Of a stretch of 64,000 nt of DNA, positions 4,414-63,371 are shown one piece after another; position 1 is the stretch's first letter, and the number at the start of each line of letters is the position of its first letter. The stretch is from positions 434,001 to 498,000 of the forward strand of contig NZ_RJUO01000001.1 in NCBI RefSeq assembly GCF_003752365.1, read 5' to 3'. A model generated the notes under the pieces. That model did not search any database, was not told where the DNA came from, and saw only the letters and a list, made by a program, of their open reading frames with translations. This DNA is from Frondihabitans sp. PhB188 (GTDB taxonomy: Bacteria; Actinomycetota; Actinomycetes; Actinomycetales; Microbacteriaceae). A program made the translations under genes and the position numbers.

Positions 4414-5835
4414 GATACGCCGCAGTTTCTCGAGCCGCGCCGCCACATCGCGCTCATTGCCGTTGACCGTCGGGTCGTAGTACGTGGTGCCGACGAGCTC
4501 GTCGGGGAGGTACTGCTGCTCGGCCACACCGAAGTCGTAGTCGTGGGCGTACTTGTAGCCCTTGCCGTGCCCGAGCCGCTTGGCGCCCGGGTAGTGCGCA
4601 TCGCGGAGGTGCTTCGGCACGCGACCGGCCTTGCCCGCCCGGACGTCGGCGATGGCCTGGTCGATGCCGAGGTACGACCGGTTCGACTTCGGTGCGGTGG
4701 CGAGGTAGACCACTGCCTCGGCCAGAGGGATCCGCCCCTCGGGCATGCCGATCATCTGCACGGCGTCGGCTGCGGCCATGGCGATGACGAGGGCCTGCGG
4801 GTCGGCCATCCCGATGTCTTCGGCGGCCGAGACGATGATGCGTCGGGCGATGAAGCGCGGGTCTTCGCCGGCCTCGATCATCCGCGCCAGGTAGTGCAGT
4901 GCCGCGTCGACATCGCTGCCCCGCACCGACTTGATGAACGCCGAGATGACGTCGTAGTGCTCGTCGCCGTTGCGGTCGTAGCGGAGCAGGGCGCGGTCGA
5001 CCGACTGCGCGACCAGCTCGGCCGTGATGACAGCCCGCGTGGACGCCTCGGGCGCAGGAACTGCGTCGCCGTCGCCGTCGTCGACCTCGTCGAGCAGCTC
5101 GGCGTCGTCGTCGTCGCCCTCCCCCGCCGTCAGGCGCGCAATGTCGCTGAGGGCCCACGCCGACTGCGCCGACGCCTCGAGCGCCGTGAGGGCGCGGCGT
5201 GCGTCGCCCGAGGCGAGCCGCACGATCATCGCGAGGGCCTCGTCGTCGAGCTCGACAGTGTCGGCGAGGCCGCGCTGGTCGTGGACGGCCCGGGTGACGA
5301 GCTCGCCGAGGTCGTCGTCGCTGAGCTGCTCGAGCGTGAGCAGCAGAGATCGCGAGAGCAGGGGCGTGATGACGGAGAACGACGGGTTCTCGGTCGTCGC
5401 GGCGATCAGGATGATCCAGCCGTTCTCGACGCCGGGCAGAAGGGTGTCTTGCTGCGCCTTGGTGAAGCGGTGGATCTCGTCGAGGAAGAGGACCGTCGTC
5501 GTGCCGTAGAGGTCGCGGTTCGCCAGGGCCTTCTCCATCACGGCGCGGACGTCTTTCACGCCCGCGGTCACGGCCGAGAGCTCGACGAACTGGCGGCCGG
5601 AGCTGTGCGCGACCGCCTGGGCGAGCGTCGTCTTGCCGGTGCCGGGCGGGCCCCAGAGGATGACGGACACGGCGCCGGACGCCCCGCTGGTGTCGGAGGC
5701 GAGCTTGATGAGCGGAGACCCCGGCCTCAGGAGGTGCTTCTGACCGGCCACTTCGTCGAGGCTCGTCGGGCGCATCCGCACGGCGAGAGGCGTCGAGCTC
5801 GACCGGACGGCCTGGCTCGTGGGAAGCGGTGTCAT
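4396..5835 (-). CDS. rarA: Replication-associated recombination protein A (RarA/MgsA AAA+ ATPase)
   Basis: Encodes 479 aa. This AAA+ ATPase acts at stalled replication forks. It shows Walker [10 protein letters not shown] (62-70), Walker [10 protein letters not shown] (115-123), a sensor region AATTENPSF (145-153) and the family C-terminal tetramerisation domain ([32 protein letters not shown]). An acidic insertion (about 239-265: a GEGDDDDAE run, then [13 protein letters not shown]) separates the ATPase lid from the C-terminal part. It looks lineage-specific and holds one copy of the recurrent GCGCAGGAAC decamer on the non-coding strand. The 3' end runs into a tandem repeat. Confidence 0.95.
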
Positions 5836-5956
5836 AGGGCTTCATGGTAGACCGGACCTCCGACAGTCTGAGGCGGCGCACGCGTGCCGGAGGCGGCCGA
5901 TGAGCCCCTCCGTTACAGTTCAGGCTGAGAGCCGATGCCCTACTGGAGGACACCCC

Positions 5957-6757
5957 GTGACACCGAGCAAGAACGACGGCCGCGAAGCACGCGAGAGGCT
6001 CCGGCGGTACACGGCTCGGCAGAAGGTCCACCAGCACCAGGTCAAGCGGCGCTTCCGCGACAACCTCTCGGCCATCATCGCGGTCGTCGTGATCGGCGCC
6101 CTGGGCACCGGCACGCAGATCGTCTACGCCAACGGCGGCTTCGACCCGAAGCCTTCGGCGACGGCCTCGGCCAGCGCCACGCCGACGGCGTCGTCGACGG
6201 CTGCCGCCGGCGCGAACACCGGCGAGGTCCCCTCGAAGCTGGTGGCCAAGAGCCGCACCTGGACCGGCTCGATGACGCTGAACGGCGACGTCGAGCTCGG
6301 GATCGAGCTCGACGGCACGAAGGCCCCTCAGGCGGCGTCGGTGCTCATCACGCTGATCGAGAAGGACTTCTACGAGGGCACGCACTGCTGGCGGATGAGC
6401 AACGCGGCGACGGCCAAGTTCCTGCAGTGCGGCGCCTCCAAGGCGGACGGGTCGGGCGACGCCGGGTTCGCGTTCGGACCTCTGGAGAACGTGCCCGCCG
6501 ACAACACGTACGACACGGGCGTCATCGCGATGGCGCGCTCGACCGACCCGTACTCGCAGGCCACGCAGTTCTTCATCGTCTACGGCTCGACCGTGCTCGA
6601 CGGCTCGACCGGCGGCTACACCGTCGTCGGCAAGGTCACCAGCGGCCTGTCGTCGATGGAGAAGGACATCACCGACAAGGGCCTGACTGCCGTCAACAGC
6701 GAGACCGACGGCTCGCCCAAGGTGGCGACGACGATCACGGCCGCCACGATCAAGTAG
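5957..6757 (+). CDS. Membrane-anchored cyclophilin-type peptidyl-prolyl isomerase
   Basis: Encodes 266 aa from the GTG at 5957, chosen because GGAGGA sits 6 nt upstream; the longer reading from 5819 adds non-conserved residues. Residues 1-37 are basic and cytoplasmic, 38-57 form one membrane helix, 60-85 form an Ala/Thr/Ser linker and about 90-265 form a cyclophilin domain (DFYEGTHCWRM; ATQFFIVYGST; GGYTVVGKV). It is likely a folding catalyst on the outer face of the membrane. Divergent from rarA. The active-site string usually read FxMxxGG is replaced by FLQCG, so activity is not certain. Confidence 0.88.
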   Translation: MTPSKNDGREARERLRRYTARQKVHQHQVKRRFRDNLSAIIAVVVIGALGTGTQIVYANGGFDPKPSATASASATPTASSTAAAGANTGEVPSKLVAKSRTWTGSMTLNGDVELGIELDGTKAPQAASVLITLIEKDFYEGTHCWRMSNAATAKFLQCGASKADGSGDAGFAFGPLENVPADNTYDTGVIAMARSTDPYSQATQFFIVYGSTVLDGSTGGYTVVGKVTSGLSSMEKDITDKGLTAVNSETDGSPKVATTITAATIK

Positions 6758-6878
6758 CCACGCTCCAAGCGTCCGCACAGGGTTCGCCCTTGTGCAATAG
6801 GCTGAACATCCATCGCTAGGGACGACTGCGAATCGCCAGTTGCGCCCCTCGACAGATCAGATCCAGCAAGGTGGAATT

Positions 6879-8111: not shown

Positions 8112-8125
8112 CGCCTCGGCGCAGA

Positions 8126-8167
8126 CGTTCCATCGCTGAAGTTCCATCGCTGAAGTTTCATCGCTGA
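8126..8167. repeat. 14-bp tandem repeat, three units, after the DUF349 stop
   Basis: Units GTTCCATCGCTGAA (8126-8139), the same again (8140-8153) and GTTTCATCGCTGAC (8154-8167) lie 15 nt past the stop codon and run straight into the terminator stem. Confidence 0.9.
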
Positions 8168-8204: not shown

Positions 8205-8233
8205 CGTCGTCTCCGCTCAGCCACTCTGGTGGC

Positions 8234-8960: not shown

Positions 8961-8966
8961 CTCGGC

Positions 8967-15036: not shown

Positions 15037-16065
15037 TCAGTCGAACAGCCCTCCTGTGCGCCGCGTCAGCCCGAAGTGCGCCCAGGCCTCCGGTGTGGCG
15101 ATGCGGCCCCGGGGTGTGCGGGTGAGCAGGCCGACCCGGACGAGGAACGGCTCGACCACGGACTCGATCGTGTCGGACTCCTCGCCGACGGAGACCGCGA
15201 GGGTGTTGAGGCCGACCGGGCCGCCGTCGAAGCGGGTCAGGACGGTCTCGAGGACGGCGCGGTCGAGTCGGTCGAGGCCGAGAGCGTCGACGTCGTACAG
15301 TTCCAGCGCCGCCTTCACCGTGCGGATGTCGGCGGCCTGACCGTGCACCAGCGCGTAGTCGCGCACGCGGCGGAGCAGGCGGTTGGCGATGCGGGGCGTA
15401 CCGCGCGACCGGCCGGCGATCTCGGCGAGGGCGTCCGTGTCGATGTCGATGTCGAGCAGCTTCGCGGCTCGGCGGATCACCTCTTCGAGCTCGGCCTCGT
15501 CGTAGAACTCCAGGTGCGCGGTGAATCCGAAGCGGTCGCGCAACGGGTTCGGCAGGAGGCCGGAGCGCGTCGTGGCGCCGACCAGCGTGAAGGCCGACAG
15601 CTCGAGCGGGATGCTCGTCGCACCCGCGCCCTTGCCGACCATGATGTCGATGCGGAAGTCCTCCATCGCGAGGTAGAGCATCTCTTCGGCCGACCGCGCC
15701 ATGCGGTGGATCTCGTCGATGAAGAGGACCTCACCCGGCACGAGCGACGACAGCACGGCCGCGAGGTCGCCCGCGTGCTGGATGGCCGGGCCCGACGACA
15801 TGCGCAGCGGCCGGTTGCTCTCGTGCGCCACGATCATGGCGAGCGTCGTCTTGCCGAGGCCGGGAGGGCCCGCGAGCAGGATGTGGTCGGGGGTGCGGCC
15901 CTGCATCGCTGCGGCCTTGAGCAGCAGCTCGAGCTGGCCGCGCACCTTGGTCTGGCCGACGAACTCGGTCAGCGACTTCGGGCGCAGAGCCCCCTCGAAG
16001 GCGAGCTCGGCGTCGGACTCGGGCTCGGGGTTGGTGAGGTCGTCGTCCACCGGGGCGGCGGTCAT
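15037..16065 (-). CDS. ruvB: Holliday junction branch-migration ATPase RuvB
   Basis: Encodes 342 aa. Walker [12 protein letters not shown] (about 66-76), Walker [10 protein letters not shown], sensor [12 protein letters not shown] and the C-terminal winged-helix segment ([28 protein letters not shown]). The ATG overlaps the ruvA stop by 4 nt. It is the motor of the RuvABC resolvasome. Confidence 0.98.
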
Positions 16066-16673
16066 CGAGCGGATCCGGCGCGCTGCGGCCCGAGGCGGGT
16101 CAGCGCTGCCCGGAGGAGCGCAGGAACTGCGCCGGTCACCGACGGATCAGCGTCTTCGAGCACCGCATCGATCGCGGCCCCCGCGTCGCGCTCCGACCAC
16201 CCGAGGCCGATGAGGGCGGTGAGCACGTCGGCCGACGTGGTGGTCGTCGCGGTGACGCTCGGCGCCTGCACGCGGATGTCGAGCTTGCCGGTGAGCTGCA
16301 CGATGATCAGCTTCGCCGTCTTGGGGCCGATGCCCGACACTCGGCGGAATGCCGCGTCGTCTTCCGCGGCGACGGCCTGGGCGATCTGCGACGGCGTGAG
16401 GTGGCCGAGCACGCCGAGCGCCGACTTCGGGCCGACGCCGGTGACGCCGCGGAGGAGGTCGAACACCTCGAGCTCGTCGGCGGTCTGGAACCCGAAGAGC
16501 GAGAGGTCGTCCTCGCGGACGATGAGGGTCGTGAACAGGTGGGCGACCGTGCCGACGTGCATCGTCAGCGCGACCTGGGGCGTGACGGCGACCTTCAGCC
16601 CGACTCCCCCGACCTCCACGACGACCGTGGACCCGGCGGCGACGGCGACTGTGCCGCGGAGACTGGAGATCAT
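16062..16673 (-). CDS. ruvA: Holliday junction DNA helicase subunit RuvA
   Basis: Encodes 203 aa: OB-fold domain I ([25 protein letters not shown]), two HhH motifs ([33 protein letters not shown]) and the flexible C-terminal RuvB-contact domain ([16 protein letters not shown]). 4-nt overlaps with ruvC upstream and ruvB downstream indicate one tightly coupled operon. One GCGCAGGAAC decamer lies near the 3' end on the non-coding strand. Confidence 0.97.
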
Positions 16674-17251
16674 CCCCCAAGCCTAGGAGTGCGGACCGAC
16701 TTCTCGGCGTCGCGCCACGCACGCTGGGCGGGGGTGAGGGACCCGCCAAGCGTTCCTGCGACGGAATCGGGGGCGTTGCGGCGCCAGGCGTGGCAGATGG
16801 CGAGGGCCAGGGCGTCCGCGGCGTCGGCGGGCTTGGGCACCTCGGCGAGGCCGAGCAGACGGGCGACCATCGCGCCGACCTGCTTCTTGTCGGCGTTCCC
16901 GTAGCCGGTGACGGCGGCCTTCACCTCGGAGGGCGTGTGGAGCGCGACCGGGATGCCCCGCTCGGCGGCGGCGCGCAGGGCGAGGCCGCTGACCTGGGCC
17001 GTGCCCATGACGGTGCGGACGTTGTTCTGCGCGAAGACGCGCTCAATCGCCATGGCGTCGGGATGGAACTCGTCGACCAGCGCCTCGATGCCGCGCGCGA
17101 TGATCAGCAGGCGCTGCTCGAGCGGAGCATCCGAGGCCGACCGGATCGTGTGGACCGACACCAGCCGGGGCACCCGGTTGGCGGCGACCTCGACGATGCC
17201 CACGCCGCAGCGGGTGAGGCCCGGGTCGACCCCGAGGACGCGGAGGCTCAC
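16670..17251 (-). CDS. ruvC: Crossover junction endodeoxyribonuclease RuvC
   Basis: Encodes 193 aa. The RNase H-fold catalytic motifs are present: [17 protein letters not shown] (catalytic Asp8), the second acidic motif [10 protein letters not shown] (near 68-77) and the C-terminal [12 protein letters not shown]. It cuts Holliday junctions brought by RuvAB. The last about 25 residues ([20 protein letters not shown]) extend beyond the core fold, as in other Microbacteriaceae. Confidence 0.97.
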
Positions 17252-17281
17252 GCCCGAGCCCCCGCCCTCATGGACGTGCGA

Positions 17282-27927: not shown

Positions 27928-27953
27928 GTCCGAGCCCCGGCAGGCAGGGCGAA

Positions 27954-28003
27954 GGGGCGCAGGAACGGGCAGCCCGGAGTCGAGCCGCCCGTTCCTGCGC
28001 CCC
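27954..28003. terminator. Bidirectional terminator built from two inverted GCGCAGGAAC copies
   Basis: GGGGCGCAGGAACGGGC (27954-27970) and its perfect reverse complement (27987-28003) form a 17-bp stem with a 16-nt loop. The hairpin lies between convergent genes, 27 nt after one stop and 8 nt from the other. Each arm contains the recurrent decamer, and the same 17-mer occurs again inside the first GH42 gene. Confidence 0.8.
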
Positions 28004-28010
28004 TCGGCCG

Positions 28011-28826
28011 TCAGGCCTTGCGCATGTACGACCGCACCGTGAGGGGCGCGAACACCGCGACGATCACGGCCGCCCCGAGGAGCGCGAGCCACAGGTCTCC
28101 GGTCACGGTGCCGGTGTTGGCGAGGTCGCGGACCGCGGTGACCAGGTGCGAGACCGGGTTCGCGTTCACGAACGCCTTGAGCCAGTTCGGCAGGGTGTCG
28201 GCCGGGACGAACGCGTTCGAGAGGAACGTGAGCGGGAAGAGCACCAGGAACGAGATGCCCTGGACGCTCGACGCGCTGCGGGCGACGACGCCGAAGAAGG
28301 CGAAGATCCAGCTGATCGCCCAGGCGCAGACGATCACGAGAACGGCTGCGAGCACGACGTGGCCCAGGCCGCCGCCCGGGCGCCAGCCGAGGATGACGCC
28401 CATCACCAGGGTGAGCGTCGTGGCGATCGCGTAGCGGACGGTGTCGGCGAGCAGCGCGCCGGCGAGCGGGGCGATGCGCGCGATCGGCAGCGACTTGAAG
28501 CGGTCGAACACGCCCTTGTCCATGTCTTCGCGGAGCTGCGTGCCGGTGACGACGGAGCCGGTGATGACCGTCTGGACGAGGATGCCGGGGATGATCATCG
28601 GCAGGTAGTCGGCGATCGAGCCCGCGATCGCGCCGCCGAAGATGTACGTGAACATCAGGGTGAAGATGATCGGCTGGACGGTGACGTCGATGAGCTGCTC
28701 GGGGGTGCGGCGGATCTTGAGGATGCCGCGGTAGGCCATGGTGAACGAGTTGCGCACCGACTGGCCGAGGCTGACGTGGTTCTTGAGCGGGCGCCCTTCG
28801 AGGGTCGCCGTGGTGATCGCGGTCAT
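28011..28826 (-). CDS. ABC-2 type (DrrB-like) transporter permease
   Basis: Encodes 271 aa with about six membrane helices (first block VQPIIFTLMFTYIFGGAIAGSIADYLPMIIPGILVQTVI). The family motif around RTPEQLIDVTVQPIIFTLMF, the amphipathic RFKSLPIARIAPLAGALLADTVRY segment and the C-terminal HLVTAVRDLANTG match DrrB/daunorubicin-type exporters. The ATG overlaps the ATPase stop by 4 nt. The pair probably exports a lipophilic drug or lipid; the substrate is unknown. Confidence 0.92.
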   Translation of the reverse strand: MTAITTATLEGRPLKNHVSLGQSVRNSFTMAYRGILKIRRTPEQLIDVTVQPIIFTLMFTYIFGGAIAGSIADYLPMIIPGILVQTVITGSVVTGTQLREDMDKGVFDRFKSLPIARIAPLAGALLADTVRYAIATTLTLVMGVILGWRPGGGLGHVVLAAVLVIVCAWAISWIFAFFGVVARSASSVQGISFLVLFPLTFLSNAFVPADTLPNWLKAFVNANPVSHLVTAVRDLANTGTVTGDLWLALLGAAVIVAVFAPLTVRSYMRKA

Positions 28827-30083: not shown

Positions 30084-30096
30084 TAGCGTGGGCCTC
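30084..30096 (+). promoter_or_regulatory. -10 element of a probable leaderless promoter (serine hydrolase)
   Basis: TAGCGT at 30084-30089 lies 7 nt before the GTG at 30097, with no ribosome binding site. This is the same layout as at 24646 and 55993. Confidence 0.5.
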
Positions 30097-31479
30097 GTGA
30101 CCAACGACGCCCTCACCCGCAGCTCCCCGTCCGCCCACGACATCGACGCCGGAGGGATCGAGGCGCTCATCGACGCCCTCGAGAGCACCGCCGAGGTCGA
30201 GCCGCACAGCCTCATGGTGCTGCGCGGCGGCGAGGTCGTCGCCGAGGGCTGGTGGGCCCCGTACGCGCCCGACCGGCAGCACCTGCTCTACTCGCTGAGC
30301 AAGAGCTTCACCTCGACGGCCGTGGGCATCGCGACCGCGGAGGGCCTCCTCTCGCTCGACGACACGATCATCAGCCACTTCCCCGAGCTCGACGCCGAGA
30401 TCACCGACGAGCGCACCCGCCGCATCACGGTCCGCCACCTTCTGGCCATGGCGAGCGGTCACCGCGAGGAGACGGTGGAGCGCGCGAGCACCCTCGACCC
30501 CGCCGACCTCGTCCGCGGCTTCCTGCTGATGCCTCCCGACGAAGAGCCCGGCACCCTGTTCTGCTACAACCAGCCCTGCACCTACACGCTCGGCGCGATC
30601 ATCCAGCGCGCGACCGGCGGCACCCTCGTCGACTACCTGAGGCCCCGTCTCTTCGACCCGCTGGGCATCGGCGAGGTGGGCTGGCTGACGCACCCGAGCG
30701 GCGAGCAGCTCGGGTTCAGCGGCTTCCACGCGCCGACCTCGGCCGTGGCCAAGCTCGCCCAGCTCTACCTGAACGGCGGCGTCTGGAACGGCGTGCAGCT
30801 CGTCCCGACGGCCTACGTCGACGAGGCGACGCGCCTCCAGGTCGACAATGCGGCCGTCGGCGGCTCCCCCGACTGGTCGCAGGGCTACGGCTTCCAGTTC
30901 TGGATGGCCACGCACGGCTTCCGCGGCGACGGCGCCTACGGCCAGTTCGCGGTCGTGCTCCCCGAGCTCGACCTCGTCGTCGCGATGACGGGCCAGAGCA
31001 TCGACATGCAGGCCGTCCTCGACGCCGTCTGGGCGCACCTCCTCCCTGCCGTGGGCGCAGGAACCGCGTCGCCCTCGTCCGACACGGCCCTCGCGGCGCG
31101 TCTGGCCTCGCTGGCCCTCCCCGTGCCGCCGGGCACCGGGGCGACGCTCGAACCGGCCTCCTTCGAGCCCGGCCCCGGCAACCGCCTGCCCACCCTCACG
31201 AGCGTCGTGCTCGGCGCCGGCCGTACGGCGACCCTCGTCGACAAGGGCCTCCCCCTCCGCCTCCCCCTCGGCGACGGCGAGTGGCTCGTGTCGGATGCCA
31301 TCGCGGCGTCGGCGTCGCCCGGGGAGGCCGGCGGGGTCCGCCTCGACGTCGCCTTCATCGAGACGCCCCACCGCCTCGTTGTCGAGCTCGACCAGTCTGC
31401 GGGGACGTTCGCCGCCGCCTGGGTCACCGAGCCGCTGCACGGCCTGCCGCTCGCCCGGGTGCGGATGCCGCGGCCCTAG
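30097..31479 (+). CDS. Serine hydrolase, beta-lactamase/class C family
   Basis: Encodes 460 aa. The start is taken at the GTG at 30097 because a -10-like TAGCGT sits 7 nt upstream; a reading from 30046 is also open. The catalytic S-x-x-K is LLYSLSKSF (Ser66, Lys69), and CYNQPCTYTLG supplies the Tyr-x-Asn motif. There is no signal peptide, so it may be cytoplasmic. The C-terminal about 120 residues form a separate beta-rich region found in some esterase-like members. Esterase or peptidase activity is more likely than beta-lactam hydrolysis. Divergent from the DrrAB-like genes. Confidence 0.85.
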   Translation: MTNDALTRSSPSAHDIDAGGIEALIDALESTAEVEPHSLMVLRGGEVVAEGWWAPYAPDRQHLLYSLSKSFTSTAVGIATAEGLLSLDDTIISHFPELDAEITDERTRRITVRHLLAMASGHREETVERASTLDPADLVRGFLLMPPDEEPGTLFCYNQPCTYTLGAIIQRATGGTLVDYLRPRLFDPLGIGEVGWLTHPSGEQLGFSGFHAPTSAVAKLAQLYLNGGVWNGVQLVPTAYVDEATRLQVDNAAVGGSPDWSQGYGFQFWMATHGFRGDGAYGQFAVVLPELDLVVAMTGQSIDMQAVLDAVWAHLLPAVGAGTASPSSDTALAARLASLALPVPPGTGATLEPASFEPGPGNRLPTLTSVVLGAGRTATLVDKGLPLRLPLGDGEWLVSDAIAASASPGEAGGVRLDVAFIETPHRLVVELDQSAGTFAAAWVTEPLHGLPLARVRMPRP

Positions 31480-32839: not shown

Positions 32840-34975
32840 ATGACGATGCACCCTGCGACCGCGCACACCCCGCAGCCCCTCACTGCCGCTGCCACCCCCG
32901 ACCGCATCCTCTTCGGGGCCGCCTACTACGCCGAGTACCAGCTCGGCGACCGCCTCGACACCGACCTCGACCTCATGGTCGAGGCGGGCTTCACCGTGAT
33001 CCGCGTCGGCGAGTCGGTCTGGTCGACCTGGGAGCCGCGCGACGGCGAGTTCGACCTCGACTGGCTCCTGCCCGTGCTCGACGGCGCCCACGCCCGCGGC
33101 ATCTCGGTGATCCTCGGCACCCCGACCTACGCCGTGCCGCCGTGGCTGCAGCAGAGCCACCCCGAGATCGCCGCGCAGACGAAGACCGGCGAGCCGATGC
33201 CCTGGGGCTCCCGCCAAGAGGTCGACTACAGCCACCCCGCGTTCCTCTTCCACGCCGAGCGCGTCATCCGCGCCATCGTCGAGCGCTACGCCGACCACCC
33301 CGCCGTGATCGGCTTCCAGGTCGACAACGAGCCCGGCATGCTGCTCTTCCACAACCCGTCCACCTTCCGCCGCTTCGTGCGGCAGCTGAAGGCGAAGTAC
33401 GGCACGGTCGACGAGCTCAACAAGGCCTGGGGCCTCGTCTACTGGTCGCACCGGATCGCCGACTGGTCGGAGCTCTGGACGCCCGACGGCAACGCGCAGC
33501 CCCAGTACGACCTCGCCTGGCGGCAGTTCCAGGCGCAGGTGACCACGGAGTTCATCTCCTGGCAGGCCGACATCGTCCGCGAGTACTCCCGCCCGGAGCA
33601 GTTCGTCACCACCTGCATCGCCTACCCGCGCCCGGCGATCGACGACGAGAAGCTCGTCGCGGCCCTCGACATCACCGCCGGCAACCCGTACTACGGCGTG
33701 CAGGACCACCTCTCGCTCGACCACGTCAAGCCGGTGCCGACGTCGTGGACCTCAACGGGCGTCGCCGGCCTGTACCGTCAGGCCGATCGCCTCTTCTCAT
33801 CGAACCAGCGGCGCTTCCTCGTCACCGAGACGAACGCCTGGTCGATCGGCGGCGCCTCGCAGAACTACCCGCCCTACCCCGGGCAGCTCAAGCAGTCGGC
33901 CTTCGCACTGATCGCCCGCGGCGCCACCCAGATCGAGTACTGGCACTGGCACACCCTCCACTTCGGCACCGAGACGTACTGGGGCGGCGTCCTGCCGCAC
34001 AGCCAGAGGCCCGGCCGCGTGTACCGCGAGGTCGCCGAGATCGGGGCCGCGCTGAAGCAGATCGGCACCCGCCTCGACGGGTACGAGCCCGACGCCGACG
34101 TGGCGATCCTGTGGTCCACGGCGACGCGATTCGCCTTCGACTTCACGCCGCCCCTCAACGTCGACGGCACGACCGGGCGTCGCGACAGCTACCAGCACAT
34201 CGTCGACGCCTTCCACGCCGGCGTCATCGGGGCGGGTGCTCAGGCGCGCATCCTGCACGTCGCCCAGGCGGTCGCGATCGGCGCCGCCGAGCTGGTGAGG
34301 CGCTTCCCCGTGCTCGTCGCACCGGCCGTGTACATCGCCGACGACGACGAGCTGCAGCTGCTGGCCGACTACGCCCAGGCCGGCGGCCACCTCATCGTCG
34401 GGCCGCGCACCGGCTACGCCGACGAGGAGGCCCGTGCCCGCCTGGCGGTCGCCCCCGACAAGCTGCACGACGCGGCCGGCGTCTGGTACGAGGAGTTCAC
34501 GAACCTCGACGACGAGCTCGCCGTCACCGGCAGCGAGGCCCTCCCGCTCAGCCCCGAGGCTCGAGCGACCGACTGGGCCGACGGACTCGTCGTCGAGGGC
34601 GCCGACGTGCTCGCCACCTACGAGCACTCCTCGTTCGGCCGCTTCCCGGCCGTGACGACGAGGGGCGCAGGAACGGGCCGCATCACCTACGTCGGCACCG
34701 TCCCGAACGGCGCGCTCTCCGCCGACGTGGTGCGGTACGCCGTTCCGCAGCCCATCGCGGCGGGGTGGACGCGCGGCGACACGGTCACCGTCGCCTCCGG
34801 CACCCTCCCCGACGGCGCGCGCGTCTGGTTCGTCCACAACTGGTCGGCCTCAGGCGCGACCGTGACGGTCCCCCACGACGTCTCCGACCTCACCGAAGCA
34901 GACCCTGCCCGGCACCTCGCCGGCACCGAGATCTCCCTGGAACCGTGGTCTTCCCTGGCCCTGGTCGACGGGTGA
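32840..34975 (+). CDS. GH42 beta-galactosidase, form without the cysteine cluster
   Basis: Encodes 711 aa, no signal peptide, hence cytoplasmic. Catalytic acid/base Glu164 in VDNEPG and nucleophile Glu330 in LVTETNAWS; the (beta/alpha)8 barrel runs to about residue 400, followed by trimerisation and C-terminal beta domains. The segment after NEPG (MLLFHNPST) lacks the Cys residues that bind zinc in many GH42 enzymes. It may act on beta-galactosides released from oligosaccharides brought in by the neighbouring ABC importer. First gene of the operon. It holds one 17-mer GGGGCGCAGGAACGGGC at 34672-34688. Confidence 0.92.
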   Translation: MTMHPATAHTPQPLTAAATPDRILFGAAYYAEYQLGDRLDTDLDLMVEAGFTVIRVGESVWSTWEPRDGEFDLDWLLPVLDGAHARGISVILGTPTYAVPPWLQQSHPEIAAQTKTGEPMPWGSRQEVDYSHPAFLFHAERVIRAIVERYADHPAVIGFQVDNEPGMLLFHNPSTFRRFVRQLKAKYGTVDELNKAWGLVYWSHRIADWSELWTPDGNAQPQYDLAWRQFQAQVTTEFISWQADIVREYSRPEQFVTTCIAYPRPAIDDEKLVAALDITAGNPYYGVQDHLSLDHVKPVPTSWTSTGVAGLYRQADRLFSSNQRRFLVTETNAWSIGGASQNYPPYPGQLKQSAFALIARGATQIEYWHWHTLHFGTETYWGGVLPHSQRPGRVYREVAEIGAALKQIGTRLDGYEPDADVAILWSTATRFAFDFTPPLNVDGTTGRRDSYQHIVDAFHAGVIGAGAQARILHVAQAVAIGAAELVRRFPVLVAPAVYIADDDELQLLADYAQAGGHLIVGPRTGYADEEARARLAVAPDKLHDAAGVWYEEFTNLDDELAVTGSEALPLSPEARATDWADGLVVEGADVLATYEHSSFGRFPAVTTRGAGTGRITYVGTVPNGALSADVVRYAVPQPIAAGWTRGDTVTVASGTLPDGARVWFVHNWSASGATVTVPHDVSDLTEADPARHLAGTEISLEPWSSLALVDG

Positions 34976-38338: not shown

Positions 38339-40362
38339 GCGGCGTCCTGGGGGCCGCGTTCGCCTACGGCGGCGACTACAACCCCGAGCAGTGGCCCGAA
38401 GACGTCTGGCGCGACGACGTCACTCTCATGAACCGGGCCGGCGTCAACCTCGCCAGCGTCGGCATCTTCTCGTGGGCCCGCCTCGAGCCCCGCGACGGCG
38501 AGTTCGACTTCGCCTGGCTCGACGAGGTGCTCGGTCTGCTCCATGCGGGCGGCGTCCGCGTCGACCTGGCCACCGCGACCGCCTCGCCGCCGCCCTGGCT
38601 GGCGCTGAAGCACCCCGAGATGCTCCCCGTGACCGAAGAGGGCGTCACCCTCTCGTCGGGCAGCCGCCAGGCGTACTGCCCGTCGTCGCCGGTCTACCGC
38701 CGCTACGCGGCCCGCCTGGTGACCGCGATCGTCGAGCGCTACGCCGACCACCCGGCGCTCGAGCTGTGGCATGTGGGCAACGAGTACGGCTGCCACGTCA
38801 GCCACTGCTACTGCGATGCGTCGGCCGTGGCGTTCCGCGCCTGGCTCGCCACCCGCTACGGCACGGTCGAGGCGCTCAACGACGCCTGGGGTACGGCGTT
38901 CTGGTCGCAGCGATACGACTCGTTCGACGAGATCCTGCCGCCCCGCGCAGCTCCGTCGTTCAAGAACCCGACGCAGCTGCTCGACTTCGACCGCTTCTCG
39001 GCCGACGAGCTGCTCGAGTGCTACCGCGTCGAGGTCGCGGTCATCCGCGCGAGCTCCTCGGTGCCGATCACGACCAACTTCATGGGCTTCTTCAAGGGCG
39101 CCGACTATTGGGCCTGGGCCCGCGAGGTCGACGTGGTGTCAGACGACTCCTACCCCGACCCCGGAGACCCGCTGTCACCGGTCTACGGCGCGATGCAGCG
39201 CGACCTGATCCGCTCGCTGGGCGGCGGCAAGCCGTGGCTCCTGATGGAGCAGTCCCCTTCCGCCGTCAACTGGCGCGAGCGCAACGCCGCCAAGCGTCCC
39301 GGCCAGATGCGCGCCTGGTCGTACCAGTGCATCGGTCGCGGCGCCGACGGGATCCTCTTCTTCCAGTGGCGCCAGGCCAAGGCCGGGGCCGAGAAGTTCC
39401 ACGCCGGCATGGTCCCCCACGCCGGCACCGACACCCGTGTGTTCCGAGAGGTGCAGGAACTCGGCGCCGAGCTCGCCGACCTCTCCGCCACGGGCCTGCT
39501 CGGCTCGCGCGTCGAGGCCCGCGTCGCCGTCGTCTTCGACTGGACTTCCTGGTGGGCGATCGAGCAGGAGGCCTCCCCCACGCGGCTCTCGTACGTCGAG
39601 GGCGTCTTCGCCTGGTACCGGGCGCTCACGGCCGTCGGCGTCACGATCGACTTCGTGTCGCCCGACAGCGACCTGGCGCCCTACGCCGTGGTCGTGGCTC
39701 CGTCGCTCTTCGTCGCGACCGATGCGCAGCTCGCCGCCCTCGACGCCTACACCGCGAACGGCGTCACCCTCGTGGCGTCGTTCCAGACCGGCATCGTGGA
39801 CGAGAACCTGCACATCCGGCTGGGCGGGTACCTCGGGGCGCTGCGGCAGACCCTCGGGGTGTGGGTCGAGGAGTTCGCGCCGCCGACGGCGCCGGATCTC
39901 GCGGCTACGGGGGGCGGAGTTCCTGCGCCGCTGGCCTTGCGAGGGGATGCCGTCGGAGGAGCCGGCGCCGCGAAGCTGTGGGGCGAGTCCGTGCGCGTCG
40001 AGGGGGCCACGGTGTCGGCCTCGTTCGACGGCGGGGTGCTCGACGGGCAGCCGGCGATCACGCGGAACGGGCGCGGTGCCGGGACCGGCTGGTACGTCGC
40101 CACGCTGCCCGACGACGCCACACTCGCCCGCTTCGCAGCCGGTGTGATCGCCGAGGCCGGTGTCGCGACGCTCCCGCGGGTCGCCGGCGTCGAGTTCGTG
40201 CAGCGCGGGTCGGCGACGATCGCGATCAACCACGGCTCGGCCGACGCCGCGCTCGACCTGCTCGGCACGGACGCGCTCACCGGCGCACCCGGCGCCGGCC
40301 TGGTGCTGGCGCCGCAGGGCGTGGCCGTGCTGGTGCGGGAGGTTGCCGCCGTCGCGCCCTGA
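38335..40362 (+). CDS. GH42 beta-galactosidase, zinc-type with cysteine cluster
   Basis: Encodes 675 aa from a GTG overlapping the permease TGA; no separate ribosome binding site at normal spacing, so translation is probably coupled. Acid/base Glu150 in HVGNEYG, nucleophile Glu305 in LLMEQSPS, and the zinc-binding cysteines Cys115 (QAYCPSS), Cys153, Cys158 and Cys160 (YGCHVSHCYCD). These are the features of classical GH42 enzymes and differ clearly from the first GH42 protein of the locus, so the two likely prefer different linkages. Cytoplasmic. One decamer on the reverse strand at 39919-39928. Confidence 0.94.
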   Translation: MSGVLGAAFAYGGDYNPEQWPEDVWRDDVTLMNRAGVNLASVGIFSWARLEPRDGEFDFAWLDEVLGLLHAGGVRVDLATATASPPPWLALKHPEMLPVTEEGVTLSSGSRQAYCPSSPVYRRYAARLVTAIVERYADHPALELWHVGNEYGCHVSHCYCDASAVAFRAWLATRYGTVEALNDAWGTAFWSQRYDSFDEILPPRAAPSFKNPTQLLDFDRFSADELLECYRVEVAVIRASSSVPITTNFMGFFKGADYWAWAREVDVVSDDSYPDPGDPLSPVYGAMQRDLIRSLGGGKPWLLMEQSPSAVNWRERNAAKRPGQMRAWSYQCIGRGADGILFFQWRQAKAGAEKFHAGMVPHAGTDTRVFREVQELGAELADLSATGLLGSRVEARVAVVFDWTSWWAIEQEASPTRLSYVEGVFAWYRALTAVGVTIDFVSPDSDLAPYAVVVAPSLFVATDAQLAALDAYTANGVTLVASFQTGIVDENLHIRLGGYLGALRQTLGVWVEEFAPPTAPDLAATGGGVPAPLALRGDAVGGAGAAKLWGESVRVEGATVSASFDGGVLDGQPAITRNGRGAGTGWYVATLPDDATLARFAAGVIAEAGVATLPRVAGVEFVQRGSATIAINHGSADAALDLLGTDALTGAPGAGLVLAPQGVAVLVREVAAVAP

Positions 40363-40547: not shown

Positions 40548-40982
40548 ATGGCGATACTGAGCGGTGTGCGCATGTGGCCGAGCACGGGCTGGCCCGACCG
40601 GCCGTGGTCGGAGTCGCCCGAGCTCGACGCCTTCCTGCGCGGCGGCCGACGGATCTTCGAGCTCTTCGGCGACGCCCTCGCCGTCGAGCGTCGCACCTAC
40701 CCCGAGTCGTTCTTCGTGCTCCGGGATCGCGACCCGTCGGAGTCGGCTGACGTCGAGTTCGAGCTCGAGGCAGTGCTGCAGGGCGCCCACGTCGCGGGAG
40801 TGCACCTGCCGCCCGGCTTCCATCGCCTGGCGCAGGAACTCCGCGACCTGCTCACCGTCGAACTCGTGTCGGCCGCTCTCGGCGCCGTCGCGCGCACGGG
40901 CGCCTTCGACGAGGCGGCTGTCGAGCGCGCCACGGCGTCAGTCCGTGCCGGCGACGGGCGCTACGTGCGGCACGGACGCTAG
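40548..40982 (+). pseudogene. N-terminal part of a broken gene of unknown family
   Basis: Reads as 144 aa (MAILSGVRMWPSTGWPDRPWSES...) ending at a TAG. The same frame continues after the TAG with gene-like sequence (WSSPDRRRRMRLGGELHSDG; FLRHWFEFENKPG) for about 40 codons, so the TAG looks like a nonsense change inside a longer gene rather than a true end. No family recognised; no membrane segment. It may still be a functional short protein. Confidence 0.5.
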
Positions 40983-43364: not shown

Positions 43365-43735
43365 CGGCATCCGCGCAGGAACGCGGGAGGCGACTCGCGC
43401 CCCCCGCGTCTCCCCGACCCTGATCCCATCGAGGAGATCTCATCATCCCACGGCCGAACGTATCTGTTCGGGGATGGACAGAGCCGCGTTCGCGTGGAAG
43501 GTTGTGGACACGGCCTGAGCGGCCCCTGACGATCTCGTGTCAACCCACGGCACGAAGCCGTGAACGCGCCTACCGTCTCTCAAGGCGATTCCCTAGTCGC
43601 TGTGACGTCTCTTCACGCAGGTCTCCTGCAGGAGGGGCGGCGGGCGCTGCCGTGGCCGGATTCCGCGGCAGCGCCCCACGCTGGGAGTCTCATGTCAGTC
43701 GGTCGTCTCCACGGGCTGTGGAAGAGACTGTGGTC
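43365..43735. other. Intergenic stretch with one strong hairpin
   Basis: 371 nt without a credible gene. It contains GGGCGCTGCCG (43642-43652) paired with CGGCAGCGCCC (43666-43676), an 11-bp stem, just after the perfect palindrome CTCCTGCAGGAG (43623-43634). These may end a transcript from the 116-aa gene or fold in the leader of the next gene. Confidence 0.5.
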
Positions 43736-45407: not shown

Positions 45408-46177
45408 GCGCCGCAGCCGTCAACCCCAACATCGTCCCGCTCGACCAGATCCCCGGCCTCCTGCTGCCCGCCCTCGGCGACACGGCGCTCATGGTCGGCA
45501 TCACGATGGTGATCGTCGTGCTCTTCGGCGTCCCGATCGGCGCCCTGGTGCACAACACCGGCCGAGGCGGCCTGTACGAGAACCGCGCGCTGCACTTGGC
45601 GAGCGGCTGGATCGTGAGCCTCGGCCGCAGCCTCCCCTTTCTGATCCTGATGGCTGCGATCATCCCGTTCACCCGCCTGATCACCGGCACGAACATCGGC
45701 ATCCCCGCCGCGGTCGTCCCGATGTCGATCGCGGGCATCGCCTTCTTCTCGCGCATCGTCGAGAACGCCCTCCGCTCGGTCCCGGCCGAGTACACGACCA
45801 TCGCGCGGGCAGCGGGGGCGTCGCGTCTCCAGGTGATCCGCACCGCCCAGCTCGCCGAGGCGATCCCCTCGCTCGTCGGCGGCCTGACCATCAACACCAT
45901 CGCCATGATCGAGTACTCCGCCATCGCGGGCACGATCGGCGCCGGCGGAATCGGCTACGTCGCGGTCACCTACGGCTACCAGCGCTTCGACACGCGGGTC
46001 ATGCTCGCGACCATCGTGCTGCTCGTCGTGCTCGTGGCCCTGGTGCAGCTGACCGGCGACAGGATCGCCCGCCGCCTGACCCCGCGACTTCGTTTTCTCC
46101 AGGGCGCAGGAACTCGGAGCACCAGCCCCGCACAGACCCCGTCGCCGGTCTCGCTGCCGGCCGCCCCGAGTTCCTGA
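45404..46177 (+). CDS. metI: MetI-type ABC transporter permease
   Basis: Encodes 257 aa with about five membrane helices (TALMVGITMVIVVLFGVPIGALVHNTG; SLPFLILMAAIIPFTRLITG) and the coupling loop AGASRLQVIRTAQLAEAIPSLVGG. The ending (TRSTSPAQTPSPVSLPAAPSS) is a low-complexity cytoplasmic tail longer than usual. Overlaps metN. The decamer GCGCAGGAAC is at 46104-46113. Confidence 0.92.
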   Translation: MSAAAVNPNIVPLDQIPGLLLPALGDTALMVGITMVIVVLFGVPIGALVHNTGRGGLYENRALHLASGWIVSLGRSLPFLILMAAIIPFTRLITGTNIGIPAAVVPMSIAGIAFFSRIVENALRSVPAEYTTIARAAGASRLQVIRTAQLAEAIPSLVGGLTINTIAMIEYSAIAGTIGAGGIGYVAVTYGYQRFDTRVMLATIVLLVVLVALVQLTGDRIARRLTPRLRFLQGAGTRSTSPAQTPSPVSLPAAPSS

Positions 46178-51371: not shown

Positions 51372-52379
51372 CTACAGCAGAGTGAGCGCCACGAGCCGCG
51401 ACATCGCCCGGAGGTACTTCTTGCGGTAGCCGCCGGCGAGCATGTCGGCACCGAAGACCTCGTCGAGCGGGATGCCCGAGGCCCGCACGGCGACCTGCGC
51501 GTCGTACAGGCGGTCGACGAACGCGACGAACCGCAGGGCCTGCGTCTGGTCGTGCAGCGGCCCCACGTTCCGCAGCACGACGGTGTCGAGGCCGTCGATG
51601 AGCTTCACGTACTTGGAGGGGTGCACGGTCGCGAGGTGCTCGATGACGGCGTCGAACTCGTCGGCGGAGACCGGCCCGGTCGCGGCTGCGACAGCTGCAG
51701 ACAGGTCGTCGGCGACGACCGCATGGGCCTCGACCTCGCGCCTCCGGTAGTCGGTGCCGTCGATGCGCAGGGTGCGGAACCGGCCCGAGAGCGCCTGGAT
51801 CTCGCGCAGGAAGTCGGACGCCGCGAAGCGGCCCTCCCCCAGTGCGTTCGGCGGGGTGTTCGATGTCGCGGCCATGCGCGAGCCGCCGTCGGCGAGCTCG
51901 CCGAGCAGCCGGGTCATGATCATGGTGTCGCCCGGGTCGTCGAGCTCGAACTCGTCGATGCAGATGAGCGCGGCGCCCGACAGCTGCGTGATGGCGCCCT
52001 GGTAGCCGACGGCGCCGACGAGGGCGGTGTACTCGATGAAGGTGCCGAAGTACTTCGTTCCGTCGGTGCGGTGCCACAGCGCCGCGAGGAGGTGGGTCTT
52101 GCCGACGCCGAAGCCGCCGTCGAGGTAGAGGCCCGGCAGAGGTCGGGCTGCGTTCCTGCGCGTGAACAGTCGACGGGTGGGCGCCGGGGCCGCAGCGAAC
52201 GACCGGACGGCCTCGACGGCCTCGGCCTGCGAGGGGTAGGCGGGGTCGGGCCGGTAGTTCTCGAGCGACGCCCCGTCGAACTGGCGCGGCGGCACCAGGT
52301 GGGCGACGATCTCGGCGGACGTGATGGTCGGGGTGCGCGTGACGAGCGACTCGGTGGTCTGCGTGCTCTCGTCGGCCAT
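51372..52379 (-). CDS. zapE: ZapE/AFG1-like ATPase
   Basis: Encodes 335 aa. Walker [17 protein letters not shown] (about 88-103), Walker [16 protein letters not shown], and TSNTPP as sensor. This matches ZapE, a cell-division-linked ATPase, and the actinobacterial AFG1-like group. Divergent from the sulfurtransferase gene, with 184 nt between. Carries the decamer at 52152-52161 in the coding direction. Confidence 0.9.
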
Positions 52380-54721: not shown

Positions 54722-55919
54722 TCCGCTGGTCGAAGCGCTCGGGGTCGACGTTCCACAGCTTGGTGTGCCGGGCGACGGAGTAGCTCTCGATGTCGACGAG
54801 GTCGGGTCGGGCTTCGGCCAGCGCCCGGCTCGCGGTCGACGGGACGAAGCCGTCGTCGTCGCTGTGCAGCAGCAGGATCGGCGCGGTCAGCTTCGTCGCG
54901 CCGAGCACGAGGTCGAGGGCGTCGAAGTCGATGGGCGTCGACTGGCCGGTGATCGTCGACAGGCGCGCCCCGCCGAGAATCCTGAAGACGGCCCGCTGCA
55001 CCGACCGCGGCAGGTGCAGGTGGTCGCCCTGGTAGGTGAGCACCGTGCGCCAGTCGACGACCGGCGACTCCAGCACCAGGCCGTCGATCAGGCCGCGGTG
55101 CTTCGAGCGGAGCGCGGTCTGCAGCACCAGAGCGCCGCCCATCGACCAGCCCATCAGCACGACGCTCGTCGCCCCGTGCTCGACGGCGTAGTCGACCGCG
55201 GCCTCGACATCGGCCCACTCGGTGAGTCCGAGGCCGTACCGGTGGTCGTCGGAATGCGGTGCCTCGCCGTCGTTGCGGTACGAGACGACGAGCGTGGCGT
55301 AGCCCTCTTCTCGGAACGCAGGAACTCCGCGCAGCGTCTCCGCCCTCACCACGCCGCGCCCGTGCACGACGACCGCCCACCGGTCGGACATCTCGTCGTG
55401 CGTCGGGACGGCGTCGACGGGCGGCACCAGCCAGGCCGGGGCGGGCCCGATCGGCGTGGCGATCTCGACGTCGGTGAAGGGCAGGCCGAGGTCGGCCGGC
55501 CGACGGTAGTACCAGCCGAGGAATCCGCCGCGGCGCGCCTTCGACAGGTCTCCCTCGTCGACGGCCTCGATGTGGCGCACCACGATGCGGCCGTCGTCGC
55601 TGATGACGTCGCCGAGGCGGGCGTAGCCGCGGCCGTCGTCGAAGTGGAAGCCGTAGCGGCCCGGAAGCCGGGTGTCGGGTGTCGACTCAAGCGAGACCGT
55701 CGCCGACCCGCGGTCGACGGCGACGACGCGGAGCCGCTCGTGGTGCGACTTCGCCGGGGTGACGACGAAGCGGGCGACCGCGTAGGCGAGGCCCGCGAAG
55801 CCCGCGACGGCGGCGACGGCGGCGCCCCCGGCCGAGATGGCGGCGATGGTGCCGACCAGGCGGGCGACGGGCTTCGGGGCGCGGCGGACGGCTTCGGAGT
55901 GGTGGACGTCAGGCGTCAT
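54621..55919 (-). CDS. Membrane-anchored alpha/beta hydrolase
   Basis: Encodes 432 aa from the ATG at 55919 (MTPDVHHSEAV). Hydrophobic segment about 19-50 anchors it. The nucleophile elbow is GWSMGG (Ser near 259), the acid is in LLLHSDDDGFVPS and the base in VARHTKLWNVD. The final about 30 residues (PARSSAAPSSGRTATRGRRS) are low complexity and lie opposite the 3' end of the reductase gene, suggesting stop-codon loss and C-terminal extension. Substrate unknown. Confidence 0.85.
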   Translation of the reverse strand: MTPDVHHSEAVRRAPKPVARLVGTIAAISAGGAAVAAVAGFAGLAYAVARFVVTPAKSHHERLRVVAVDRGSATVSLESTPDTRLPGRYGFHFDDGRGYARLGDVISDDGRIVVRHIEAVDEGDLSKARRGGFLGWYYRRPADLGLPFTDVEIATPIGPAPAWLVPPVDAVPTHDEMSDRWAVVVHGRGVVRAETLRGVPAFREEGYATLVVSYRNDGEAPHSDDHRYGLGLTEWADVEAAVDYAVEHGATSVVLMGWSMGGALVLQTALRSKHRGLIDGLVLESPVVDWRTVLTYQGDHLHLPRSVQRAVFRILGGARLSTITGQSTPIDFDALDLVLGATKLTAPILLLHSDDDGFVPSTASRALAEARPDLVDIESYSVARHTKLWNVDPERFDQRIRGWLRALPARSSAAPSSGRTATRGRRSAADRG

Positions 55920-61325: not shown

Positions 61326-61337
61326 CCGCCCGCCGGA

Positions 61338-61395
61338 CCCTCCCGCTCGGCCTCTCCGTCAGTCCGCAGACTGTCGGAGAGGCCGACCGGGAGGG
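61338..61395. terminator. Bidirectional terminator between fadB and dxs
   Basis: A 21-bp stem with one mismatch: the arm starting CCCTCCCGCTCGG (61338-61358) pairs with the arm ending CCGGGAGGG (61375-61395) across a 16-nt loop. It lies between convergent genes. Confidence 0.85.
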
Positions 61396-61442
61396 TTCTG
61401 CCCTGTCAGGAGTCAGGCGCGCCAGACGAGCAGGCCTACCGC

Positions 61443-63371
61443 CTACTCGCGCGTGCGGCTCGCCGGCTCGCCCTCGCGCCGGGCCACGGGCAGCTTCGAG
61501 CCGAGGACCATAGCGGTCACGTCGCGCGCGACGGCCTGAGCCGTGAGCCCGGCGGCCGCGAAGATCTCGGAGCGCGAGGCATGGTCGATGAACTCGTCGG
61601 GGAGGCCGAGCTCGGTCACGGCGGTGTCGACGTCGGCAGCCCGCAGGTCTTGCCGCACCCTCGTGCCGATGCCGCCGACGCGCACGCCGTCTTCGATCGT
61701 CACGACCAGACGGTGCTCGGCGGCGAGCTCGATGATCGACGCAGGAACGGGCACCACCCACCGCGGGTCGACGACGGTCGCCCCGATGCCCTGATCGGCC
61801 AACCGCTCGGCGACGTCGAGGCCGAGTCGCGCCATCGGACCCACCGCCATGATGAGCACGTCGGGCCGGTCGCCGCGGGCCAGCACCTCGACGCCGTCGT
61901 GGAGCCGTTCGAGCGCCGGGATGTCCGTGCCCACCTCGCCCTTCGGGAACCGCACCACCGTGGGTCCGTCGTCGACCGTCACGGCCTCCCGCAGCTCCTC
62001 CCGGAGGCGGGTGGCGTCGCGGGGTGCGGCGATGCGGATGCCGGGGACGACCTGGAGGATCGCCAGGTCCCAGATGCCGTGGTGGCTCGGTCCGTCGGGG
62101 CCGGTGACTCCGGAGCGGTCGAGCACGAACGTGACGCCGGCCTTGTGCAGACCGACGTCCATCAGCACCTGGTCGAAGGCGCGGTTGATGAAGGTGGCGT
62201 AGAGCGCCACGACGGGGTGCAGGCCTCCGTAGGCGAGGCCGGCCGCCGAGGCGACCGCGTGCTGCTCGGCGATGCCCACGTCGAGCACGCGCTGGGGGTA
62301 CTTCTCCGCCATGCGGTGCAGGCCGACGGGGCGGAGCATGGCGGCGGTGATGCCCACGATCCTGCGATCGTGATCTGCGATCGAGACGATCTCGTCGGCG
62401 AAGGTGCTGGTCCAGCCGGGCGCGCTCGACGGGTCGAGCGCCTCGCCGGTCTCGGGGTCGATGTGGCCCACGGCGTGGAACTGGTCGGCGGCGTCTTGAA
62501 GGGCCGGCTCGAAGCCGCGGCCCTTCTGCGTGATCGCGTGCACGATGACCGGAGCGCCGTAGTTCTTGGCCTGCTCGAGCGCCTCCTCCATCGCGGCCTG
62601 GTCGTGCCCGTCGACCGGCCCGATGTACTTGATGTCGAGGTTCGAGTAGAGCGCCTCGTTGTTCGTGAAGCGGCTCAGGAAGCCGTGGAGGCCTCCCCGG
62701 ACGCCGCGGTAGAACGCGCGGGCCGGCGAGCCCAGGTGGTCGAAGGCGGCACGCGACGTGACGTGCATCTCGCGGTAGGCCTGAGCCGTGCGCACCGAGT
62801 TCAGGAACCGCGCCATGCCGCCGATGGTCGGCGCGTACGAGCGCCCGTTGTCGTTGACGACGATGATCAGGCGACGCGTGTTGTCGTCGCTGATGTTGTT
62901 CAGGGCCTCCCACGTCATGCCGCCGGTCAGGGCGCCGTCGCCGACGACCGCGACGACGTGGCGGTCGCCGTGGCCGGTGAGGGTGAAACCGCGCGAGAGT
63001 CCGTCGGCCCAGGAGAGCGACGACGACGCATGCGACGACTCGACGATGTCGTGCACGGACTCGCTGCGCTGCGGATAGCCGGCGAGGCCGCCCTTGAGGC
63101 GCAGGTTCGAGAAGTCCTGTCGCCCGGTGACGAGCTTGTGGACGTACGACTGGTGGCCGGTGTCGAAGACGATCGCGTCTTTCGGGGAGTCGAAGACGCG
63201 GTGGAGGGCGAGGGTCAGCTCGACCACTCCGAGGTTCGGGCCGAGGTGGCCGCCCGTCTTCGAGACCTCGGTCACGAGGAACTTCCTGATCTCGGCAGCC
63301 AGGGTGAGCATCTGCTCGTGGCTGAGTCCGTCGAGATCGCGGGGACCGTGGATGGTCTCGAGAAGGCTCAT
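61443..63371 (-). CDS. dxs: 1-deoxy-D-xylulose-5-phosphate synthase
   Basis: Encodes 642 aa from the ATG at 63371 (MSLLETIHGPRDLDGLSHEQ). Thiamin diphosphate motif GDGALTGGMTWEALNN, early HLGPNLGVVELTLALHRVF, and transketolase central domain DVGIAEQHAVASAAGLAYGG, with QVVPGIRIAAPRDATRLREEL. First enzyme of the MEP isoprenoid pathway. Faces fadB; promoter region lies between it and the aconitase end. Confidence 0.96.
   Translation of the reverse strand: MSLLETIHGPRDLDGLSHEQMLTLAAEIRKFLVTEVSKTGGHLGPNLGVVELTLALHRVFDSPKDAIVFDTGHQSYVHKLVTGRQDFSNLRLKGGLAGYPQRSESVHDIVESSHASSSLSWADGLSRGFTLTGHGDRHVVAVVGDGALTGGMTWEALNNISDDNTRRLIIVVNDNGRSYAPTIGGMARFLNSVRTAQAYREMHVTSRAAFDHLGSPARAFYRGVRGGLHGFLSRFTNNEALYSNLDIKYIGPVDGHDQAAMEEALEQAKNYGAPVIVHAITQKGRGFEPALQDAADQFHAVGHIDPETGEALDPSSAPGWTSTFADEIVSIADHDRRIVGITAAMLRPVGLHRMAEKYPQRVLDVGIAEQHAVASAAGLAYGGLHPVVALYATFINRAFDQVLMDVGLHKAGVTFVLDRSGVTGPDGPSHHGIWDLAILQVVPGIRIAAPRDATRLREELREAVTVDDGPTVVRFPKGEVGTDIPALERLHDGVEVLARGDRPDVLIMAVGPMARLGLDVAERLADQGIGATVVDPRWVVPVPASIIELAAEHRLVVTIEDGVRVGGIGTRVRQDLRAADVDTAVTELGLPDEFIDHASRSEIFAAAGLTAQAVARDVTAMVLGSKLPVARREGEPASRTRE

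Follow-up and report, generated by a model that had tools for sequence, protein, structure and literature searches.

The stretch of DNA considered here, hereafter called the window, is 64,000 nucleotides long (C1:434001-498000 of a genome of 3.79 Mb in 10 contigs) and contains, among other genes, rarA/mgsA, ruvA, a PF00144 serine hydrolase gene, one GH42 gene and an AFG1/ZapE-like gene, all of which carry the same decamer, GCGCAGGAAC. The original prediction, made from the letters of the window, had listed 11 exact copies of this decamer in unrelated genes, together with three copies of a 9-base part of it, and had read them as a replichore-oriented signal such as Chi or the FtsK-orienting polar sequences (KOPS). 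The 11 copies exist (8 on the plus and 3 on the minus strand), one of them at 34665 instead of 34675. That chance should supply well under one copy per window was confirmed by dinucleotide shuffling (mean 0.33; 0/100 shuffles reach 11). The three additional 9-base copies were also found, bringing the count of CGCAGGAAC to 14, 10 of them on the plus and 4 on the minus strand (Table 1).

Table 1. Positions of GCGCAGGAAC, of further copies of its 9-base part CGCAGGAAC and of a predicted hairpin in the window
Feature	Position	Strand	Context
GCGCAGGAAC copy	5052..5061	+	within rarA/mgsA gene (4396-5835, -)
GCGCAGGAAC copy	16118..16127	+	within ruvA (16062-16673, -)
9-base partial copy CGCAGGAAC	16752..16760	-	
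GCGCAGGAAC copy, left arm of inverted pair	27957..27966	+	spacer between convergent genes ending at 27927 (+) and 28011 (-)
GCGCAGGAAC copy, right arm of inverted pair	27991..28000	-	same spacer, genes ending at 27927 (+) and 28011 (-)
Predicted hairpin from the 27957/27991 inverted pair	27953..28004	.	fold of 27945-28012
GCGCAGGAAC copy	31055..31064	+	within PF00144 serine hydrolase gene (30088-31479, +)
GCGCAGGAAC copy	34665..34674	+	within GH42 gene (32840-34975, +)
GCGCAGGAAC copy	39919..39928	-	in doubtful gene call (38026-40362, +)
GCGCAGGAAC copy	40830..40839	+	in doubtful gene call (40548-40982, +)
GCGCAGGAAC copy	43373..43382	+	not within any gene call
GCGCAGGAAC copy	46104..46113	+	not within any gene call
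GCGCAGGAAC copy	52152..52161	-	within AFG1/ZapE-like gene (51372-52379, -)
9-base partial copy CGCAGGAAC	55317..55325	+	
9-base partial copy CGCAGGAAC	61740..61748	+	

Excess and distribution over the genome

Genome-wide, GCGCAGGAAC occurs 391 times in forward and 343 times in reverse orientation, which makes 734 copies or about 1 per 5 kb; the reversed word, counted as a control, is found 6 + 1 = 7 times. Spaced stretches of contigs C1-C5 (1.344 Mb including the window; hereafter the sample) contain 264 copies, as against 19.5 expected from an order-4 Markov model, an excess that the original prediction had anticipated. On the same background the three strongest 12-base extensions of the decamer reach 76-104 times the expectation. 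The flanks lengthen it to a motif of about 14 bases, GGGCGCAGGAACTC (core CAGGAAC), in which G has frequencies of 0.64 and 0.68 ahead of the core, and T (0.73) and C (0.59) follow behind it. The exact 14-base word was counted 68 times versus 0 for its reversal, and with at most one mismatch 173 times versus 4; at three mismatches (748 versus 394) the excess is swamped by the background. A weight matrix iterated at a lax threshold shifted toward the GATC variant, and the counts were made without it. When single bases of GCGCAGGAACT are changed, each change within CAGGA leaves 0-3 copies in coding DNA, and several changes further out are in excess (up to 27 versus 2.7), including the T variant, which yields the genus word (17 versus 4.6). 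Thus the inner core CAGGA is fixed and the outer positions are tolerant. Around the copies conservation is lost beyond about 14 bases, which rules out a larger, dispersed element.

Coding DNA of the sample contains 140 copies of GCGCAGGAAC, in comparison with a mean of 14.7 and a maximum of 23 in 50 synonymous shuffles (an earlier gene set gave 142 versus 15.7 in 30 such shuffles). This roughly ninefold excess rules out a codon artefact and argues for an effect at the level of the DNA, as had been suspected from the window. The coding copies fall into six frame/orientation classes, one of them with only 2 copies, and 60 are oriented along their gene and 80 against it. Outside gene calls the density is 0.375 per kb versus 0.137 per kb inside, a ratio to be read as an upper bound since the home-made gene finder, which called just 76-78% of the sample coding and missed comEC, inflates the intergenic excess.

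The forward/reverse counts on contigs C1 to C5 are 47/37, 26/31, 34/29, 20/16 and 13/11 (binomial p 0.33-0.84), and the cumulative skew along these contigs revealed no block structure (summed range 33 versus 45.7 for random order). The strand test was performed per contig, in place of a test relative to origin and terminus; in simulations a 65% bias that switches once, within C1, was detected with a power of 0.94, and a 60% bias with a power of 0.61. The preference for the plus strand (10/14), correctly noted for the window, therefore does not extend to the genome sample, and with the two orientations about equal along the contigs a polar signal like KOPS is not supported. Uptake sequences occur in both orientations across the chromosome, and so does GCGCAGGAAC. 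The total orientation is likewise balanced for other dialect words (863/886, 595/599 and 647/610; see below), and the stretches of the related genome G030 are also mixed (43 forward, 53 reverse).

Depletion from mobile and recently acquired DNA is another trait of uptake sequences, and in this genome GCGCAGGAAC is rare in DNA that looks foreign. The plasmid-like contigs C6-C9 contain 0 copies in the 129 kb sampled versus 25.4 expected (P about 1e-11), and C6 encodes a TrwC relaxase. When contigs C1-C5 were divided into bins of five kb, 16 bins with a GC content below 65% had 1 copy, 11 bins with 65-67% had 3 and 241 bins with at least 67% had 260. Mobility was apparent for some of the motif-free stretches, low-GC DNA encoding a relaxase together with an integrase (L069) or TniQ (L055); a further low-GC stretch (L007) encodes transporters, with no mobile-element match among the proteins scanned.

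There are 202 neighboring pairs of GCGCAGGAAC in the sample, 8 of which lie within 100 bases, as compared to 3.9 expected in any orientation. All 8 are inverted, and in 4 of them the spacing is 34 bases. The pair in the window is predicted to fold (27945-28012, -55.8 kcal/mol, z -7.97) in a place typical of a terminator.

A second over-represented word, ACTCCCCCG/CGGGGGAGT, was encountered in the same sample (66 copies in 1.344 Mb versus 11.5 in the order-4 Markov model; 16/66 outside gene calls). Runs of C also seemed to be enriched in C1-C5, which was traced to just 4 long runs.

Related words in the genus and the family

The comparison comprised 119 genomes, namely 7 of the genus (the own genome, G000, and G001-G006), 65 from other genera of the family and 47 from other families. 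GCGCAGGAAC is in excess in just one of the 119, its own; the 6 congeners have 14-39 copies and the 112 other relatives at most 126. All 6 congeners instead carry CAGGAT- or AGGATCC-type words in excess over the codon null (small samples), the top words being GCAGGATC/CGCAGGATC in G001, G005 and G006, CAGGATGCGA and GCAGGATC in G002, GCAGGATGC in G003 and AGGATCCG in G004. The genome counts of CGCAGGATC from G000 to G006 are 344, 1156, 782, 392, 467, 1109 and 1749, as against at most 174 in 64/65 other genomes of the family and at most 231 in the 47 genomes of other families. The remaining genome, G052, from another genus of the family, has 407 copies, perhaps by convergence or by transfer of specificity. 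In G004 (L087-L090) the word CCAAGCCCAAG is found 9 times in 80 kb versus about 0 expected, which may be a local repeat.

In the other genera of the family a different word is frequent. ACGGATGCC exceeds 75 copies, the maximum in the 47 genomes of other families, in 35/65 of these genomes and reaches 1257; in the window's own genus there are just 24-66 copies. Within coding DNA of G030 it was counted 79 times versus 7.5 (maximum 13) in 20 synonymous shuffles, and there it lengthens to about GCGACGGATGCCGC. Among 296 genomes drawn from across the class, GACGGATGCCG was found 59-708 times in 12/13 further genomes of the family, 9 times in the 13th and 11 times in G000, and at most 43 times in 282 genomes outside the family (maximum from an 11-Mb genome). 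Loci of known taxonomic origin gave 40 copies of ACGGATGCC in 33 Microbacteriaceae loci (331 kb) versus 3 in 43 loci from other families (448 kb), 76/80 loci being used (L113, L133, L142 and L161 were excluded). In 40-kb samples from ten other genera, the top six words include one of the GGATG type in 8, only weakly so in G016, and not in G021 and G050. Such a word was also present in the named-locus pools of Agromyces, Glaciihabitans and Microbacterium and in a mixed pool, and was not seen in those of Cryobacterium and Naasia or in the control pools (Arthrobacter, Streptomyces, Cellulosimicrobium and Kribbella). GGA is common to all dialects seen.

The family of the compared genomes (f1) is probably Microbacteriaceae, judging from one ABC-transporter protein, whose best matches fall mostly in Microbacteriaceae (Galbitalea 75%, Agreia 77%) and in some cases in Arthrobacter (up to 77%), and from ACGGATGCC, which is frequent in Microbacteriaceae loci of known origin and in no compared family other than f1.

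A candidate uptake sequence and its competitors

The host encodes both DNA import genes and type IV filament genes. In the genome of the window one operon (L223) comprises genes for PilB (MshEN, T2SSE), a PilT-like ATPase of 542 residues, PilC (T2SSF), a pilin starting with GFTLIELLVVVIIIGILAAIAIP, two more N-methyl proteins and a protein of 603 residues without a Pfam match. In all 7 genomes of the genus a second T2SSE ATPase comes after the PilB-type one, and a third ATPase, which is TadA-like, is encoded elsewhere; the names PilT and TadA are tentative, being based on place and score. A ComEC match was obtained in 114/119 genomes and an HHH_3 (ComEA-type) match in 116/119.

The codon-independent excess, the lack of polarity, the rarity in foreign-looking DNA, the inverted pairs, few as they are, and the family-limited dialects on a fixed core amount to the behavior of an uptake sequence. 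We consider it probable (about 0.72) that GGGCGCAGGAACTC is the species dialect of a Microbacteriaceae DNA uptake sequence, a bias in uptake being the best explanation of this genomic pattern. In the proposed mechanism a receptor on the uptake machinery, presumably a type IV or Tad pilin or ComEA, would bind DNA bearing the word, and DNA of the same species would be imported via ComEC and recombined more often, by which word-bearing alleles would spread, through transformation, at the expense of word-less ones. The chromosome would therefore be filled in both orientations and in all frames, and plasmid-like contigs and low-GC islands would stay almost empty. With drift of the receptor's specificity the word would change, giving rise in congeners and other genera to other dialects sharing GGA. 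We also think it rather likely, with somewhat less assurance, that the Microbacteriaceae evolved their own uptake-sequence system, in which dialects of species and of genera act as transformation barriers comparable to mating types, and that a switch from GATC to GAAC took place here with the older genus word retained in excess (344 copies of CGCAGGATC).

Uptake signal sequences (USS) of the Pasteurellaceae have AT-rich flanking tracts, of which there is no counterpart around GCGCAGGAAC, and they differ further in that the word is unrelated and the host here is a high-GC Gram-positive bacterium. They are similar in being an independent word with the same genomic behavior, including the use in hairpins (PMC1852404; this and the other papers are cited from excerpts), and come in two types with the inner core GCGG (PMC12616744). 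The DNA uptake sequences (DUS) of the Neisseriaceae resemble GGGCGCAGGAACTC in several respects: a short word of fixed sequence is present hundreds to thousands of times, related species have dialects that keep an inner core, with eight DUS dialects described (PMC3630211), and, tentatively for GGGCGCAGGAACTC, copies pair into hairpins where genes end, such hairpins being reported at terminators in Neisseria and in Pasteurellaceae (PMC1852404). Again the word is unrelated and the host a different one, and in the Microbacteriaceae receptor and uptake bias are hypothetical. For these reasons we do not count GGGCGCAGGAACTC among the DUS or USS in the strict sense; the genomic evidence suggests that it works like them. 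An intragenic orientation preference of uptake sequences has also been described (PMC2346458). The actinobacterium in which uptake has been studied is Micrococcus luteus, where natural transformation proceeds by ComEA/ComEC and Flp (Tad) pili; the term "uptake sequence" is absent from PMC4322843 and PMC8467076. The genome here has in common with M. luteus ComEC, ComEA-type proteins and the third, probably TadA-like ATPase, and differs from it in having, in addition, an operon for a type IV pilus in which a second ATPase occupies the PilT position.

Neisseriaceae and Pasteurellaceae are described, in the excerpt used, as the only families known for uptake sequences (PMC12616744), and in our literature searches, conducted mostly at title level and with subscription papers outside their scope, no report of an uptake sequence in Microbacteriaceae or other Actinobacteria was found. 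If true, the Microbacteriaceae would be the third such family and the first Gram-positive one. The trait would have evolved again, with the recognition step placed at the pilus or the cell wall. A family with so many dialects would be useful for finding the receptor by co-variation, and under this hypothesis natural transformability should be found in many Microbacteriaceae, and the donor DNA suited to them could be predicted.

The main rival is a signal for recombination after entry or after breakage: the word would stop or redirect a nuclease of the AddAB, AdnAB or RecBCD type at double-strand breaks, or promote recombination of imported DNA, and would spread because recombination is favored by it. 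The density of about 1 per 5 kb resembles that of Chi in E. coli, which is likewise linked to recombination, and rarity in mobile DNA is expected here as well. We regard a Chi-like role as unlikely because RecC (PF04257) gave no match in 7/7 genomes of the genus, the E. coli control being found (AddAB and AdnAB were not searched for), and because the word is not the same in all species of the genus. Moreover, GCGCAGGAAC lacks the orientation bias of Chi in the C1-C5 sample, and one would not expect Chi sites to be paired in inverted orientation. A little less likely still is that a nucleoid, regulatory or segregation protein of the Microbacteriaceae binds the word and that selection maintains each site. 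Such sites could account for the excess at the DNA level in all frame and orientation classes and for the higher density outside gene calls; they fit poorly with copies on all large contigs without blocks, with few positions common to different species, and with dialects that differ within one genus, since each change of specificity would require hundreds of sites to be rewritten.

The remaining two explanations are very improbable. A polar signal for FtsK or for chromosome architecture (KOPS, or architecture-imparting sequences, AIMS) would, like the SpoIIIE recognition sequences (SRS), be a frequent short word and is suggested by the 10/14 bias in the window, yet neither the genome sample, with its lack of skew and blocks, nor the mixed stretches of G030 agree with it, a bias near or below 60% being less well covered by the test. 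There is just as little to recommend a mobile repeat dispersed over the genome, or an origin of the word in codon or dipeptide usage. TTC CTG and ATC CTG are codon pairs within the words, and some unrelated 8-base words are about twofold over the codon null, as opposed to about ninefold for GCGCAGGAAC; the congeners' 14-39 copies also speak against this reading, as does, for a mobile repeat, the loss of conservation beyond about 14 bases.

Several findings weigh against an uptake sequence. Genomes of Neisseriaceae contain 2245-3603 copies (PMC3630211, as excerpted), more than the genomes here, and no data on DNA uptake or transformation in a member of the Microbacteriaceae turned up in our literature searches. 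Motif-free DNA is not always plainly mobile, since contig C7 has ordinary metabolic genes (e.g., for PEPCK) and the motif-free start of C2 has transporters. Close inverted pairs are few, both here (8, where chance alone predicts 3.9 close pairs irrespective of orientation) and in the samples of relatives (1 among 96 copies in G030, 0 among 59 copies of GCAGGATC in G001). Orthologous positions are mostly not shared among species (this comparison, which served as a negative only, consisted of short alignments with little conservation, some rows being duplicated by overlapping hits). In the 40-kb samples and pools, control genera also have unrelated words with z of 8-10, so that whole-genome counts, not small samples, carry the claim of dialects. 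ComEC and HHH_3 are equally common in motif-free families and, being nearly universal, neither discriminates the families that bear the motif. The association with PilB, which was assigned from the best PF00437 E-value below 1e-100 after scoring the 15 best candidates per genome and found in 40/72 genomes of the family, depends on how genomes are chosen. Over all 72 the motif density is higher with PilB (p = 0.0006; one genus contributes 7 and 11 are below 2 Mb), but with one genome per genus of at least 2 Mb p is 0.17, and the genera that reach 50 copies per Mb are 18/34 with PilB versus 10/32 without (p = 0.09). These 10 PilB-negative genera with at least 50 copies per Mb (G062 has 1194 copies) have their opposite in 6 PilB-positive ones below 25 per Mb. 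In G002, where GCAGGAT-type words are abundant, the ComEC match is split into two adjoining pieces in different frames (G002:C1:2981383-2982173), possibly by a recent loss of import or by an assembly error. The filament used for uptake may be of type IV, may be Tad, or may since have been lost.

The 11 genomes of the family below 2 Mb (G010, G015, G017, G018, G020, G032, G035, G043, G064, G066 and G070) contain both dialect words at only 5-27 copies per Mb; a ComEC match is present in 9/11 (weak in G066) and PilB, by the cut-off, in G032 only. Uptake specificity was possibly lost there together with genome reduction.

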